A DNA stretch of 64,000 nt from Bradyrhizobium sp. WSM471. GTDB taxonomy: Bacteria > Pseudomonadota > Alphaproteobacteria > Rhizobiales > Xanthobacteraceae. The notes under the pieces were generated by a model that ran no database searches, was not told where the DNA came from, and saw only the letters and a list, made by a program, of their open reading frames with translations. This document shows positions 6,130 through 35,730 of this stretch, in pieces. How positions within the stretch are numbered: the first letter of the stretch is position 1; each line of letters begins with the position of its first letter. The stretch is taken from positions 4,092,001 to 4,156,000 of the forward strand of contig NZ_CM001442.1 in the NCBI RefSeq assembly GCF_000244915.1, written 5' to 3'. The translations under genes and the position numbers were made by a program.

Positions 6130-6810
6130 CTATCGCCGCGCGGCGATGATCTCGAGGGCGCGTGCGCCCGGGATCGCTTCGCCGGCGGAGAGCCTCAGGA
6201 AATCCCCGGGTTCGCCCGCGAGCGCCTTGTCGAGCAGCGCCGTGTAGCGCCGCCGCGAAATCTCGGCCGCGCCAAAACTTTTCAGGTGCTCGGTGACGTA
6301 TTGGGTGTCGAGCAGCTCGAAGCCGCCATGGATGAGCCGCGCGACCAGATGCACCAGCGCGACCTTGGAGGCATCACGCGCGGTGTGGAACATGCTCTCG
6401 CCGAAAAAGGCCCGGCCCAGGCTGACGCCGTAAAGGCCGCCGACGAGGTCCTCGCCCTGCCAGGCCTCGACGCTGTGGCAATGGCCGAGCTCGTACAGCC
6501 CGCCATAGAGGTCGCGGATGCGCTTGTTGATCCAGGTGTCCTCGCGCCCGGCCTGCGGCGCGGCGCAGCCGGCGATCGTGGATTTGAAGGCGGTATTGAC
6601 GGTGACGCGGAATGAATCCGAGCGCACGGTGCGCGCCAGCCGCGAGGCCACGCGAAATCCGTCGAGTGGGATGACGCCGCGCAACTCCGGCTCGACCCAG
6701 AACAGGGTCGGATCATCGGCGCTTTCGGCCATCGGAAAGATGCCGCAGGCATAGGCGCGCAGCAGAACGGCCGGCGTGATTTCAGACGGGGCAGAGTCGC
6801 GCGAAGTCAT
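6130..6810 (-). CDS. aat: Leucyl/phenylalanyl-tRNA--protein transferase
   Basis: 226 residues from the ATG at 6810 ([11 protein letters not shown]); the frame stays open upstream but lacks support. The enzyme adds Leu or Phe from tRNA to proteins with N-terminal Lys or Arg, marking them for ClpS/ClpAP (N-degron pathway). Family motifs are clear: [27 protein letters not shown], then [32 protein letters not shown] and [18 protein letters not shown]. Length is normal. It is convergent with the DUF2155 gene and follows the signalling operon with about 50 bases between, so it may have its own promoter. Confidence 0.95.
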
Positions 6811-6859
6811 GGCTCGCCACATTAGCAGGATCGCAATGCGGTTGCGATGGGCGGTGCGG

Positions 6860-7963
6860 TCAGTTCGCTGCGGCAGCAGCCGGCTTGTTATCGGCTGCCG
6901 GTACACGGCGGAACCTCAACATGATTCGGGTTCCGGAATGGGTGGGATCGCGCTCGACCGAAGCGTCGAGCTTGGTGGCCATGGCTGCGACGATGCGCTG
7001 GCCCATGCCGGTGGAGCGCGGATCGGCCTTGACGTTGTCGCCGACGCCGTCGTCGCTGATCGACAGCAGGAGATCGTCGCCATGCGAGGTCAGCTCGACA
7101 TGGATCGGGCCGGCGCCGTCGGGATAGGCGTATTTCACCGCGTTCATCACCAGTTCGTTGACGATGATGCCGACGGCGACCGCACGGTCTGGATCGATCT
7201 CGATCGGTTCGGCCTTCAGCGTCAGGCGCGACATCCGGTTGCCCTCGGCCGAGCGCCTGAGATCCTCGAGCAGCGAGTCCAGATACTGGTTCAGGACCAC
7301 GCTCTTCAGGTCCTGCGAGGTGTAGAGGCGGCGGTGCACCTGCGCGACCGCGGCGACGCGGCCCATCGCATTGGTCAACGCAGCCTTGACCTCGTCCTGC
7401 GCGGCGGAGCTGGCCTGCAGGTGCAGCAGGGAAGCGATGATCTGGAGCGAGTTGCCGACGCGGTGGTTGACTTCGCGCAGCAGCAGCTCGCGTTCGGCTG
7501 CAAGCGCAGCGTAGCGATCGCGCGAGGCATGGATCTCGGCTTCGGCTTCCTCGCGCGCCTTCTGCAATTCGGCCTGGCGCAGCGCGCCCTCGGCCGCGAC
7601 GTGAAGCAGGGGGATGAAGTCGCCCTTGACGTCCTTGACGAGATAATCGGCCGCGCCAGCCTTCAGCGCCGTCACCGCAATGCTGGAATCCTGCGACGCC
7701 GTGACGAACACCACCGGCGGCGCGCCCGGGATCGCCATGATCTGCTCCAGCGTCTCCAGCCCGTCGAGGCCGGGCATGTACTGGTCGAGCGCGACCACGT
7801 CGATGCCGCCGGTCGTGCCCGCGCGGCGGATGTGCTCGAGGCCTTCCTCGCCGCTCACGGCGTGGACGACCTTGTAGCCGCGCCGTGTCAGGCCGCGATC
7901 GACCAGGCGCGCCAGCGCCCCGTCGTCGTCGATGTAGAGCAGTGTGGGCATGCGCTGGTTCAT
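6860..7963 (-). CDS. Hybrid receiver-histidine kinase, HisKA_2 type
   Basis: 367 residues. Residues 5-125 are a receiver domain (LLYIDDD; phosphoacceptor D60 in VALDQYMP; T88; K110). A coiled linker follows, then a HisKA_2 dimerisation domain with [19 protein letters not shown] (phosphorylated His about 167) and an HATPase domain with [16 protein letters not shown] and a shortened lid ([15 protein letters not shown]). There is no sensor or membrane segment, so input must come through the receiver. HWE/HisKA_2 kinases commonly phosphorylate PhyR-type regulators of the general stress response. The start overlaps the stop of the preceding receiver gene by 4 bases, so the two are translationally coupled. 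Confidence 0.9.
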
Positions 7964-8400
7964 GGGGCGGCGGGCGGAACCTGGATGACCGAGAAGAACA
8001 AGCCGAGCTGCCGGATGGCATTGGCGAAATTCTCGTAGTTCACGGGCTTGGTGATGTAGACGTTGCAGCCGAGCTCGTAGCAGCGCTTGATTTCCTGGGA
8101 ATCGTCGGTGGTGGTCAACACCACCACGGGCGAGGCCTTCAAATATTTGTTCTCCTTGATCTGCTTCAGAATGTCGATCCCGGTCATGTCGGGCAGGTTG
8201 AGATCGAGCAGGATCAGGAGGGCATTGCCCTTCTGCACGAGACCGCTGCCGTCGGGTCCGAACAGGTGTTTCATCGCGTCCGTGCCGTTGGCAAAGGAGA
8301 TGATCTCGTTGTTGACGCCGGACCTTCGGATGTTCCGCTCGATCAGCCGCGCGTGTCCTTCGTCGTCCTCGATCATGATGATGCTGACGGGTTGAGTCAT
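7960..8400 (-). CDS. Single-domain response regulator (Rcp1-like)
   Basis: 146 residues, all one receiver domain. The acidic pair is in IIMIEDDEGHARLIERNIR, the phosphoacceptor Asp in LLILLDLNLPDMTG, the Thr in VVVLTTTDD and the Lys in VYITKPVNYENF. There is no output domain. The extended loop between beta 2 and beta 3 (FGPDGSGLVQKGN) is typical of Rcp1-type receivers that pair with phytochrome-like kinases. It overlaps both neighbours by 4 bases (ATGA), and is the middle of a kinase-receiver-kinase relay. Confidence 0.92.
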   Translation of the reverse strand: MTQPVSIIMIEDDEGHARLIERNIRRSGVNNEIISFANGTDAMKHLFGPDGSGLVQKGNALLILLDLNLPDMTGIDILKQIKENKYLKASPVVVLTTTDDSQEIKRCYELGCNVYITKPVNYENFANAIRQLGLFFSVIQVPPAAP

Positions 8401-9914
8401 TGATCCGCGTTCCGGTTGCTGGCGTTCCAGGTGATGGGCAGCGTGATGGTGAAGGTACTGCCCGTATTCAGTTCCGATGATACCGACATGGTGCCGCCGA
8501 GGCGACGCACAAGTGCACGCACATGCGCAAGACCGATGCCCTGACCGGGCTTGTCCTGGGTTCCGGCGCGGCGAAACAGGTCGAATATCCGCTGGTGGTC
8601 CTTGGGGTCGATGCCGCGGCCGTTATCGCTGATCTCGAAGATAGCGTAGCCGAGCTTGGTGCGCCCGCGGATTCTGATCTCGCCGGGGACGCCGGGCTTG
8701 AGATATTTGATGGCGTTGTCGATCAGATTGGAGAAGATCTGCTCCAGCGCCAGGCGGTCGCTGACGAGATTGGGCAGGGGGGCGACATGGATCTCCGCCT
8801 GCGCCTCGGCGGCCTGATGCGCCAGCGTCGATACGATCGCTTCGATCAGCTCGGCGGTGTCGATCTTTTCGGGCTGGAACTCGCGCCGGCCCTCGCGGGT
8901 GAGATTGAGGATCGCCGAGATCAGGCGGTCCATCTTGGCGATCGACGACTTGATGAAGCCCAGCGCTTCGGAAAAATCCGCTGAGAGCTGCTTGTCGGCA
9001 CCTTCGAGCGCGATCTCGCCGTCCGGCAGCGGCGGCCCGTCGGCCGGGACGTGGGTAAGGCCGCCTATACGGCGGAAAATGTCGCCGCCGAGCTCTTCGA
9101 GTTCGCTGGTGAAGCCCATGATGTTGACGAGTGGCGAGCGCAGATCGTGGCTGACGATATAGGCAAAGCGCTGGATCTCGTTATTGGCTTCGCGCAGATC
9201 GGCCGTGCGTTCGTCGACCACGGCCTCCAGATTGACATTGGCATCGCGCAGGCGGGCCTCGGCATCGTCACGGGCGCGGGCCGAGCGCCGCACCAGCCAG
9301 ATCGAGATCAGCGCCAGCAGCACGACGAGGCCCGAGCCGATGCCGGTCATCGACGCGGCCAGGGTCTGGCTGCGGTCCGAATTGACCGTTCGGAGCCGGA
9401 ACAGCCGTTCTTCTTCCTGGATCATCTCGGTCGCGACTTTGGCGATTGCGGCTGTCGCGTCCGTGGAGACAACCTCGCGGACCAGCGCTGCGGCGTTCTC
9501 CGGCTCACCCCGCCGGAGGAAATCCATCTCCTGCGCGAACTGGCCGAGACGGGTCTCGATCGCCGCGCTCAGCTTCTCGATGTTCTCGCGTTGCGCCGGA
9601 TTGTCGCCGGTCAGGCGCGTGAGCTTGTCGAGAGCCGGGACGACGGCCGCCACGGCCTTGTCATGGTCGACCTTGAAATCCTCGCCCTGTGTCAGGAGGT
9701 AGCCCCGGGCGGTGCTCTCGGCTCGGCGGATTTCCAGCAGGAGGGCGTTGATCTGGTTCTCCGCCTCGATGGTGTGAACCACCCATTTGCTGTCGTCTCT
9801 CGCCTTGTTGACGAGGTAGACGGAGCCGGCGCTGATCACGGTCAGCACCAGCAGTCCCGCTGCGAACAGCAGGATCTGCCAAAACGTACGCCGTCGCTGC
9901 GCGTCAGCGGTCAC
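8397..9914 (-). CDS. Membrane sensor histidine kinase with CHASE3 domain
   Basis: 505 residues with a GTG start at 9914. Transmembrane segments are at about 12-34 and 187-208, enclosing a periplasmic CHASE3 domain (LLLEIRRAESTARGYLLTQ signature). A coiled coil follows (EAVVDERTADLREANNEI). The HisKA domain has FAYIVSHDLRSPLVN with His 256, and the HATPase domain has NLIDNAIKY, DNGRGID and PGQGIGL. Residues about 275-320 in the HisKA hairpin form a longer, acidic loop than usual. It is the first gene of a three-gene operon with 4-base overlaps and is preceded by a perfect EcfG-type promoter at 9981-10005. Confidence 0.92.
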   Translation of the reverse strand: MTADAQRRRTFWQILLFAAGLLVLTVISAGSVYLVNKARDDSKWVVHTIEAENQINALLLEIRRAESTARGYLLTQGEDFKVDHDKAVAAVVPALDKLTRLTGDNPAQRENIEKLSAAIETRLGQFAQEMDFLRRGEPENAAALVREVVSTDATAAIAKVATEMIQEEERLFRLRTVNSDRSQTLAASMTGIGSGLVVLLALISIWLVRRSARARDDAEARLRDANVNLEAVVDERTADLREANNEIQRFAYIVSHDLRSPLVNIMGFTSELEELGGDIFRRIGGLTHVPADGPPLPDGEIALEGADKQLSADFSEALGFIKSSIAKMDRLISAILNLTREGRREFQPEKIDTAELIEAIVSTLAHQAAEAQAEIHVAPLPNLVSDRLALEQIFSNLIDNAIKYLKPGVPGEIRIRGRTKLGYAIFEISDNGRGIDPKDHQRIFDLFRRAGTQDKPGQGIGLAHVRALVRRLGGTMSVSSELNTGSTFTITLPITWNASNRNADQ

Positions 9915-9980
9915 GACGGTCTCGCTCGATCAGGCTTGCCGGACTTCAAAACGCCCCCTCGGAACTGTCCCCACGTCCTA

Positions 9981-10005
9981 AACGCGATTAGGGCCAAAGG
10001 GTTCC
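9981..10005 (-). promoter_or_regulatory. EcfG (general stress sigma) promoter of the sensor-kinase operon
   Basis: On the minus strand GGAAC (10001-10005), exactly 16 bases, then CGTT (9981-9984): a perfect match to the known EcfG consensus. Transcription would start near 9973, giving a leader of about 60 bases before the GTG start at 9914. Confidence 0.75.
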
Positions 10006-10019
10006 ATGCGGAGGGACGG

Positions 10020-11378
10020 CTACTTCGGGGCGGGTTCCGCCTTGCCGGCGAGATATTGTTCCAGCCAGTGGATGTGGTAGTCGCCGTTGATGATGTCGTC
10101 TTCGCGCACCAGAGCGCGGAACAGCGGCAGGGTGGTCTCGATGCCCTCGACCACCATCTCGTCCAGCGCCCGGCGCAGCCGCATCAGGCACTCGCCGCGG
10201 GTCTTGCCGTGCACGATCAGCTTGCCGACCAGCGAGTCGTAATAAGGCGGGATCGTGTAGCCCTGATACACGGCGGAATCGATCCGCACACCGAGCCCCC
10301 CGGGAGGGTGATATTGAGTGATGCGGCCGGGCGAAGGACGGAAGGTCTGCGGATTCTCGGCGTTGATGCGGCACTCGATTGCGTGGCCGATGACCTGGAC
10401 CTCTTCCTGCCGCGCCGGCAGGTCGCCGCCGGCGGCGATGCGGATCTGCTCCAGCACGAGGTCGATGTCGGTGATGCTCTCAGTGACGGGATGCTCGACC
10501 TGGATGCGCGTGTTCATCTCGATGAAGTAGAACTCGCCGTCCTCGAACAGGAACTCGATCGTGCCGACGCCGAGATATTTCATCTCGCGCATCGCCTTGG
10601 CGCAGGTCTCGCCGATCTTGGCGCGGGCCGCCGCAGTCAGCACGGGCGAGGGGCCTTCCTCCCAGACTTTCTGGTGGCGCCGCTGCAGCGAGCAGTCGCG
10701 TTCGCCAAGATGAATCGCGCCGCCGCGGCCGTCGCCGAGGATCTGGATCTCGATGTGGCGCGGCTTCTGCAGATATTTTTCGAGGTAGACGGAGGCATCG
10801 CCGAAGGCGGATTTGGCCTCGTTGGCGGCCGTTGACAGCGCGACCTGAAGATCGGCCTCGCTCTCGGCCACCTTCATGCCGCGGCCGCCGCCGCCCGCCG
10901 CGGCCTTGACCAGCACGGGGAAGCCGATCTTCCTGGCGATCGCCATTGCGTCGTCGTTGGGGCCGACCCCTCCGTCGGAGCCGGGCACCACGGGAATGCC
11001 GAGCTTCTTGGCCGTCCTTTTGGCCTCGATCTTGTCGCCCATCAGGCGGATGTGCTCGGCCTTCGGGCCGATGAAATGCAGATTATGCTCGGCGAGGATT
11101 TCGGCAAAGCGCGCGTTCTCCGACAGGAAGCCGTAGCCGGGATGCACGGCATCGGCGCCGGTGATCTCGCAGGCCGCGAGCAGCGCGGGGACGTTGAGAT
11201 AGCTGTCCTTGGACGCCGGCGGCCCGATGCACACGCTCTCGTCCGACAGGCGCACATGCATGGCATCGGCGTCGGCGGTGGAGTGCACGGCGACGGTCGC
11301 GATCCCGAGTTCCTTGCAGGCCCTGAGGATGCGAAGGGCGATCTCGCCGCGATTGGCTATGAGGATCTTGTCGAACAT
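10020..11378 (-). CDS. accC: Acetyl-CoA carboxylase, biotin carboxylase subunit
   Basis: 452 residues from ATG at 11378 ([18 protein letters not shown]), with AAGGA in front; the in-frame upstream extension is not conserved-looking. It carboxylates biotin on AccB with ATP and bicarbonate, the first half-reaction of acetyl-CoA carboxylase. The biotin carboxylase N-domain, ATP-grasp ([13 protein letters not shown] near 160) and catalytic [13 protein letters not shown] motif are intact. It lies 60 bases after accB on the same strand, the usual accBC operon. Confidence 0.97.
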
Positions 11379-11438
11379 GGTGTCCTTATTGGACTGACGC
11401 GCGGAAAGCGGCGAGGGCGATGAGACCACCCTCGATCG

Positions 11439-12692: not shown

Positions 12693-13541
12693 TTAGCCTT
12701 CGATAATGTACACGATCTCGCGCGTCTGCGGACGAACGATGACATACCGCCCGTGCACCAAGATCACATCATAGCCGCGCCATTCCGGATAAATCTCGAC
12801 GATCCGCGGGGGAAGCGGATGGAAATGAACGCTGGCCGGGATTGTCGTGCCGACCGAGATGTTGAAGTTGACGTTGGTCGTTTCCTCGATCTTGGTCGAC
12901 TTGATCGCGGATGTGATCTCGGTCCGCTTCTCGGGCGGCGGTGCAGAAGCGGTCGCGGAGGCCGTGCCGGTCGTGGTCTGAGACTTGGTATCGGCGGCCT
13001 TGTTGTCCGCACCCTTGGTCTGGCTGTCTGCGCCCTTGGTCTGGGCGTTCATGTTGCCGCTCTTGGTGTCAGTCTCCGTGCTCTTGGACTTGTCCGTCTG
13101 GGACTTGTCCATCGTGCTCTTCGACTTGTCCTGCGCTGCCTTGTCCTGCGCTGACTTGTCATGCATGGACTTGTCTTGAGCGGACTTATCCTGCGCGCCC
13201 TGGGCGTGCTCACCCTTCGCCGCGCCGGCCTTCTCGTCGGTCGCGTTCTTGTTCATCGCGCCGGACTTGTCCATCCCGCCCGACGACTTCTCCTCGGCTG
13301 CTCCGCCGGACTTCATGCTGCTGGAGCCGCCAGCCTGACCGACGGTGCCCTTCTCATGGGCGGATTCCTTACCCATCGAGCCGCCGCGTTCGGCGGCGCC
13401 GCCGGAAGGCTGCGAATGCTGCATCTGCGCACCACCGGCGCCGCCACCGCTGTCGCGGTTCATGGTGCCCTGTGCGTTCGCCAGACCGGTGCCCGCGACG
13501 AGCGCGAGTGTAGCAACCGAGATCATAAAGCGGTTAGACAT
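12693..13541 (-). CDS. Secreted hydrophilic repeat protein with DUF1236 domain
   Basis: 282 residues with a good ribosome site (GAGGAGA) before the ATG. Signal peptide residues 1-23 (SVATLALVAGTGLANAQ). Residues about 25-195 are very hydrophilic and low in complexity, rich in Lys, Asp, Gly, Ser, Gln and Met, with repeats of the form AQDKS/MHDKS/QTDKS and SQTKGAD, much like disordered LEA-type stress proteins. Residues about 205-282 are the DUF1236 domain (PASVHFHPLPPRIVEIYPEW; YVIVRPQTREIVYIIE). Function unknown. The EcfG-type promoter at 13586-13610 predicts induction in the general stress response. Confidence 0.85.
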   Translation of the reverse strand: MSNRFMISVATLALVAGTGLANAQGTMNRDSGGGAGGAQMQHSQPSGGAAERGGSMGKESAHEKGTVGQAGGSSSMKSGGAAEEKSSGGMDKSGAMNKNATDEKAGAAKGEHAQGAQDKSAQDKSMHDKSAQDKAAQDKSKSTMDKSQTDKSKSTETDTKSGNMNAQTKGADSQTKGADNKAADTKSQTTTGTASATASAPPPEKRTEITSAIKSTKIEETTNVNFNISVGTTIPASVHFHPLPPRIVEIYPEWRGYDVILVHGRYVIVRPQTREIVYIIEG

Positions 13542-13585: not shown

Positions 13586-13610
13586 AACGAAAGGAGATTT
13601 GAGTAGTTCC
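13586..13610 (-). promoter_or_regulatory. EcfG (general stress sigma) promoter of the DUF1236 gene
   Basis: On the minus strand GGAAC (13606-13610), 16 bases, CGTT (13586-13589), a perfect consensus match. The predicted start of transcription is near 13579, about 38 bases before the ATG at 13541. Confidence 0.8.
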
Positions 13611-35186: not shown

Positions 35187-35672
35187 TTATTCGGTGACCA
35201 GATCGGCGGCGCGTTTCGCCTTCTTGCCGGTATTCTTGACCGTCTCTTCTCCGACCTTTTCGGCCTTGGCGCGAAGCTCACATTTGGTACGGATCTCGTC
35301 GAGCTCGTCGTCGGTCAAATGCTCAATTCCCACGAAGGAATTTTGCACCGCGCTCACCCGGATCAGTTCGTCGAGCTTCACCTGAATGGCCGCGCTGTCG
35401 CGATTCTGGGAATTCTGAATCAGGAAGACCATCAGGAACGTTACGATTGTGGTGCCAGTGTTGATCACCAACTGCCATGTGTCGGAGTAATGGAAGACGG
35501 GACCGGTGACCGCCCAAACCAGGACGATGCCCGCGGCAATCATGAATGTCAGCGCGCGCCCGGCAGCTTGAGATGTTCGGTTGGCAATATCGCTGAAGAG
35601 TTGAGCCGCGCTGTCACGTGGCTGGTCCGCTTTGCCCTTGGCCGGACGAGATTTCGCGTGGGTCTTTTGCAT
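35187..35672 (-). CDS. Small low-affinity iron permease-like protein (Fet4-related)
   Basis: 161 residues. Two membrane segments at about 40-58 (ALTFMIAAGIVLVWAVTG) and 66-86 (WQLVINTGTTIVTFLMVFLIQNSQNRD) carry the family signature of PF04120; the conserved NTxTTIxTFLMVFLIQNSQNRD block is unmistakable. The C-terminal half is charged and helical (IEHLTDDELDEI). Despite the family name, metal transport by such short bacterial members is not established. A perfect EcfG promoter at 35706-35730 places it in the general stress regulon. Confidence 0.85.
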   Translation of the reverse strand: MQKTHAKSRPAKGKADQPRDSAAQLFSDIANRTSQAAGRALTFMIAAGIVLVWAVTGPVFHYSDTWQLVINTGTTIVTFLMVFLIQNSQNRDSAAIQVKLDELIRVSAVQNSFVGIEHLTDDELDEIRTKCELRAKAEKVGEETVKNTGKKAKRAADLVTE

Positions 35673-35705: not shown

Positions 35706-35730
35706 AACGCGAAGGGAACTCCGAAGTTCC
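35706..35730 (-). promoter_or_regulatory. EcfG (general stress sigma) promoter of the Fet4-like gene
   Basis: On the minus strand GGAAC (35726-35730), 16 bases, CGTT (35706-35709), a perfect consensus match. A second CGTT follows at 35698-35701. The start of transcription is predicted near 35699, about 27 bases before the ATG at 35672. Confidence 0.78.

Follow-up and report, generated by a model that had tools for sequence, protein, structure and literature searches.

The locus raises the question of whether a sensor-kinase operon of Bradyrhizobium sp. WSM471 is led by a promoter for EcfG and, if it is, whether its kinases act back on the PhyR-NepR-EcfG switch. The window, i.e., the whole stretch of DNA analyzed, comprises 64,000 nucleotides of a genome that consists of one chromosome of 7.78 Mb. 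The original prediction placed a GGAAC-N16-CGTT motif ahead of a three-gene operon and proposed that the encoded kinase module, made by EcfG and serving as an input to PhyR, would form a feedback loop. The genes concerned are:

8397-9914, minus strand: k1, a CHASE3-HisKA-HATPase membrane kinase of the TcsA type (Pfam; 505 amino acids, GTG start)
7960-8400, minus strand: rr, a single-domain receiver of the TcrA type (Pfam; 146 amino acids)
6860-7963, minus strand: k2, a receiver-HisKA_2-HATPase kinase of the FsrR type (Pfam; 367 amino acids)

Coordinates, Pfam domains and both junctions (k1/rr and rr/k2, each an ATGA overlap) agree with an operon of a CHASE3 kinase, a receiver and a REC-HisKA_2 kinase, as had been predicted. 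The rr protein is a receiver of the Rcp1-like kind, its best solved relative being 3heb, followed by 5ic5, 5brj and Rcp1. The nearest named relatives of k2 (best 80 of 570) come from Bradyrhizobium, with B. canariense first. As in the HisKA_2/HWE inputs to PhyR, the HisKA_2 domain of k2 keeps its histidine and the ATP-site residues: the receiver aspartate, the conserved threonine and lysine, the phospho-histidine and the checked ATP-site residues are invariant among all 42 proteins compared, whereas of the receiver's two acidic positions one varies in 8 and the other in 1 of these proteins. The original prediction allowed for the true target being the receivers that the operon itself encodes, which is possible; however, Pfam finds no DNA-binding output domain in k1, rr or k2, so a protein encoded elsewhere must relay the signal.

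The putative promoter consists of two boxes:

10001-10005, minus strand: GGAAC, -35 box, EcfG type (127 distinct relatives; 1.93 bits per column)
9981-9984, minus strand: CGTT, -10 box, EcfG type (1.64 bits per column, versus 0.56 in the 16-base spacer)

The word GGAAC-N16/17-CGTT ahead of a start codon is what we take to be the EcfG promoter consensus, and GGAACCCTTTGGCCCTAATCGCGTT at 9981-10005 on the minus strand matches it exactly as GGAAC-N16-CGTT. The motif and its spacing ahead of the operon were thus found as predicted, with 66 bases between the motif and the k1 GTG (9912-9914); because the accC open reading frame (ORF) on the same strand ends at 10020, the motif lies in the intergenic gap.

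Such a short word may arise by chance, in which case the operon would be transcribed by read-through from accBC or from another promoter. The window contains three exact motifs, every one ahead of an ORF, against 0.63 expected, and 2 of 100 shuffles reached three. Across the whole genome, there are 152 exact copies versus 194 of the reversed pattern, i.e., no excess, so that the motif sequence taken from a single genome is not above background; moreover, accC is the immediate upstream neighbor and is read in the same direction. Conservation speaks against chance. We found k1 in 116 of the 117 genus genomes searched, and in 57 of 70 genus loci, selected from the 116 as the 30 best matches plus 40 picked across the identity range, an exact motif occurs within 300 bp upstream of k1. 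The same holds for 61 of 80 named loci, which are the top 80 among 570 and overlap in species with the genus set. After one locus with only a partial k1 (L169, among the 61) and two without the k1 5' end (L170 and L175, among the 19 misses) had been dropped, 147 upstream regions remained, which gave 127 distinct sequences, related by descent, from Bradyrhizobium and its relatives. Within 160 bp, the motif is exact in 98 of these, has one mismatch in 26 and two in one, and is worse in two, whereas seven wrong spacings yielded 0-2 exact matches and five scrambled box pairs 0-1. With 1.93 and 1.64 bits per column in the boxes compared to 0.56 in the spacer (0.63 and 0.77 in the flanks), and with these controls on spacing and box order, the boxes appear to be under selection while the spacer drifts. 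The exact-motif loci include some from Rhodopseudomonas, Tardiphaga and Afipia; of the two Tardiphaga loci, one lacks the motif, as do three of the four from Afipia, and in several exceptions within the genus the position of CGTT is occupied by CGTA. Despite the lack of a genome-wide excess, we therefore reject a chance motif, which we regard as very improbable, on the grounds of conservation. The predicted EcfG promoter ahead of the operon is strongly supported by these 127 regions; k1-rr-k2 would be transcribed from it, and accBC read-through may add to this transcription.

The genes on either side lie on the same strand:

10020-11429, minus strand: accC, biotin carboxylase (Pfam; from the first GTG of the ORF, the true start may be further in)
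6130-6810, minus strand: aat, leucyl/phenylalanyl-tRNA-protein transferase (from the likely ATG; Pfam match on the longer ORF 6130-6906)

All 70 genus loci have accC upstream of k1 and in the same orientation. The aat gene starts 49 bases 3' of k2; it is found on the k2 strand in 67 of the 80 named loci, at a median gap of 59 bases and a maximum of 6.7 kb, and might be co-transcribed with the kinases through read-through. Separate from the promoter boxes, a stretch containing GGGG and TTG is conserved in the k1 leader (9941-9960, minus strand; up to 1.93 bits per column), and an alifold analysis of 29 leaders gave no common fold, so that a conserved RNA structure was dismissed. The two other exact EcfG motifs of the window are also on the minus strand: the second (13586-13610) lies 44 bases before a DUF1236 gene (12693-13541), for which the exact motif recurs within 200 bp upstream in 58 of the 62 named loci with a placeable gene start, and the third (35706-35730) lies 33 bases before an Iron_permease (PF04120) gene (35187-35672).

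Concerning the role of the kinases, we consider it probable that k1-rr-k2 is an EcfG-transcribed module feeding into the PhyR-NepR-EcfG switch, with EcfG then making more of the module; in other words, the stress response would probably strengthen one of its own inputs. This reading builds on the PhyK-like core of k2 and on the linkage of the trio to nepR, ecfG or phyR in four other families. The k2 kinase core matches the PhyK model NF051872 with 120.8 bits, over residues 147-349 only and far below the equivalog cut-off of 750 bits; FsrR of Sinorhizobium medicae, at 111.8 bits, is likewise far below it. Nevertheless, k2 is the only place in this genome that exceeds 100 bits, the next ones scoring 56.8 (a sensor part) and 51.5 (a second HisKA_2 kinase), and seven other HWE kinases scanned alone match LovK-type or PRK13559 models, not PhyK at 1e-12. 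Two points count against a PhyR input: the PhyK model also matches in 7 of 14 control genomes, and Brucella PhyK, according to two studies as summarized in the available part of PMC12354254, did not regulate the stress response under the conditions tested. The stretches surrounding the eight other HWE/HisKA_2 kinases of the genome were also scanned for the EcfG motif (L114-L121, the upstream side in L120 lying outside the stretch); an exact motif on the same strand occurs only in L117, where it precedes the ORF before the kinase, and EcfG promoters ahead of these kinases were discarded as a general feature.

Linkage of the trio to the switch comes from other genomes. The window's own genome has a single NepR match, at 7.219 Mb and about 3.1 Mb from the operon, adjoined by PhyR-like and EcfG-like ORFs (L039; labeled by position, length, our own reading and BLAST neighbors), so that in this genome the trio shows no linkage to phyR-nepR-ecfG; the 5-kb phyR-nepR stretch itself has no exact EcfG motif. 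Of 297 genomes sampled across the order, 68 contain a k2 match; 59 of these lie outside the genus, and three of the 59 (G219, G249 and G391) match k2 in its kinase half only. Among these 59, a NepR match above the Pfam cut-off lies 1.8-6.9 kb from k2 in 10 genomes and a weaker one, below the cut-off, 2.5-7.5 kb away in 5 more, compared to an expectation of about 0.2, for which the 8-kb reach and the mean genome size were our choice; the binomial tail overstates the case, since the genomes are related by descent. One further genome (G253, L246) has phyR and ecfG matches beside k1 and no NepR match. The linkage to nepR, ecfG or phyR spans four families other than that of the window, and it is not seen in 43 of the 59 genomes, which argues against a PhyR input.

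We fetched 40 of the 59 loci, of which 11 contain phyR matches and 9 ecfG matches; in L224, an ecfG-like ORF overlaps k1 by 4 bases. The three genes k1, rr and k2 stand together in 37 of the 40 (all except L221, L233 and L240), and the N-terminal half of k1 is unaligned in 5 of the 37. In these five (L217, L218, L220, L225 and L229), rr and k2 are conserved and k1 carries CHASE, PAS or GAF instead of CHASE3, i.e., the sensor has been exchanged within the module. In L220 (G388) and L225 (G268), weak NepR-like matches lie 5.7 and 7.5 kb from k2, and each genome has a strong NepR on another contig; perhaps a second stress switch stands beside the trio there. An exact EcfG motif occurs within 450 bp of k1 in 5 of the 37 loci (control patterns, 0-1). 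In three genomes of one genus (L238, L247 and L249), an exact motif stands before a small ORF just upstream of k1, presumably a DUF1328 gene. The promoter evidence outside the genus also includes results against the loop: the motif stands directly before k1 in only 1 of the 37 loci, from the same family as Bradyrhizobium, and no exact motif precedes nepR on its strand in four f31 loci, L215 having one with a single mismatch.

The same module is known from S. medicae, to whose plasmids a DNA search led: there the trio is annotated tcsA, tcrA and fsrR, followed by lpiA. The original prediction had named the domains correctly and had missed this closest relative. It brings in a reading in which the kinases are members of the EcfG regulon and not an input, their output going to another regulator without a loop. 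In the accessible text of PMC4674904, TcsA-TcrA-FsrR are acid-responsive regulators of lpiA, the acid activation of which requires FsrR, acting as an activator. No exact EcfG motif precedes tcsA or lpiA in S. medicae; the fsrR-lpiA gap instead carries a sigma-54-like TGGCACACTGTGTGCT (L040:11382-11397 and L043:11382-11397), and close to the tcsA-tcrA-fsrR cluster there is a gene for a sigma-54-type regulator. Judged by a consensus that we assume to be that of sigma-54, this site may explain the control of lpiA without EcfG. The FsrR-lpiA tie, this gap with its nearby regulator gene and the 43 unlinked genomes all suit regulon membership alone. In contrast, the linkage of the trio to nepR, ecfG or phyR in four families and the PhyK-like core of k2 do not suit it, nor do the trios on Azospirillum and Sphingomonas plasmids, whose neighbors differ and which have no regulator gene directly beside them. 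On balance, we consider membership in the regulon without input to be unlikely. In the window genome, lpiA was also discarded as a target, with only partial matches (33 and 29%) and no clear orthologue.

Under the preferred input reading, EcfG, the general-stress sigma factor, would transcribe k1-rr-k2, and the CHASE3 domain of k1 would sense an envelope or periplasmic cue. The kinase k1 would then phosphorylate rr and the receiver of k2, the state of which would set the activity of the PhyK-like k2 transmitter. In turn, k2 would exchange phosphate with PhyR, in either direction, directly or via the FATGUY receivers encoded in the genome; PhyR~P would draw NepR off EcfG, and the freed EcfG would make more k1-rr-k2. 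We infer every phosphotransfer, the signal and the positive sign of the loop; the observations on which the scheme is built are the place and conservation of the promoter, the operon structure, the homology, the phospho-acceptor residues and the linkage elsewhere. Of the feedback idea put forward originally, the part concerning a PhyR input thus gains support from the PhyK-like core and the linkage in four other families, while the loop and its sign stay conjectural.

The sign, in particular, may be the opposite: k2 made by EcfG may dephosphorylate PhyR or drain phosphate and thereby end the response. There are precedents for such braking, as far as the consulted parts of the sources go: in Caulobacter, LovK-LovR is a phosphate sink and PhyK a phosphotransferase (PMC5964349), and in Sphingomonas PhyT guards against over-activation and EcfG makes NepR2, which acts as a brake (PMC6599016). 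The ATP-site residues kept in all 42 k2 proteins and the activator role of FsrR in S. medicae (PMC4674904, in part) weigh on the other side, although both are compatible with a phosphatase role. We treat the negative loop as a live rival of low probability and the positive loop as our first choice.

The idea of feedback is not new in kind, since HWE/HisKA_2 kinases as inputs to the general stress response (PMC12148442, as far as available) and the increase of phyK and lovK expression by SigT, the EcfG of Caulobacter (PMC5964349, figure legend), are already published. Within the literature searched, the connection between the TcsA-TcrA-FsrR module and PhyR is new: no title retrieved under PhyR together with HisKA_2 or CHASE3 makes it, and no paper found there joins FsrR with PhyR, although these genes may be covered by a 2022 study of stress kinases in B. 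diazoefficiens to which PMC12354254 refers. More broadly, and only tentatively, with less than even confidence, we suggest that TcsA-TcrA-FsrR is a widespread alphaproteobacterial general-stress input in which a HisKA kinase acts on two receivers and a PhyK-like kinase sets PhyR, the module being tied to the switch by linkage in some families or by an EcfG promoter in the Bradyrhizobium family. If this is true, a HisKA kinase would act on the stress switch by way of a HisKA_2 kinase that carries a receiver, the HisKA sensors of the module would be exchangeable (CHASE3, CHASE, PAS, GAF), the loop in the genus Bradyrhizobium would lie at the sensor level, and low-pH signaling through Sinorhizobium FsrR would run through PhyR and RpoE2 and not through a private regulator. 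FsrR is, by its domains, a kinase without a DNA-binding part, and the linkage points to PhyR as its partner. The general stress response of Bradyrhizobium is needed for efficient nodulation of soybean, as stated in the part of PMC8092242 available to us.

Among known systems, TcsA-TcrA-FsrR agrees with the k1-rr-k2 operon in gene content, gene order and domain make-up, at identities of 43.5% (k1/TcsA), 73% (rr/TcrA) and 54% (k2/FsrR). The two differ in that lpiA lies 3' of fsrR in S. medicae, whereas here aat, and not lpiA, lies beside the operon, and in that an EcfG promoter leads the operon here, whereas tcsA has no exact EcfG motif upstream. The FATGUY receivers (MrrA of Caulobacter and SdrG of Sphingomonas) are, like rr, single receivers among HisKA_2/HWE kinases (PMC5964349, in the part consulted). 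They carry PFxFATG(G/Y), in contrast to rr, the translation of which lacks PFxFATG; a role of rr as a FATGUY hub is thereby ruled out, and two PFxFATG receivers are encoded elsewhere in the genome. As to PhyK and LovK, HisKA_2 kinases that belong to the general stress response in Caulobacter, the PhyK model is the closest one to the core of k2, but k2 has a receiver where PhyK and LovK have a sensor, and in the operon it follows a HisKA kinase gene and one for an Rcp1-like receiver.
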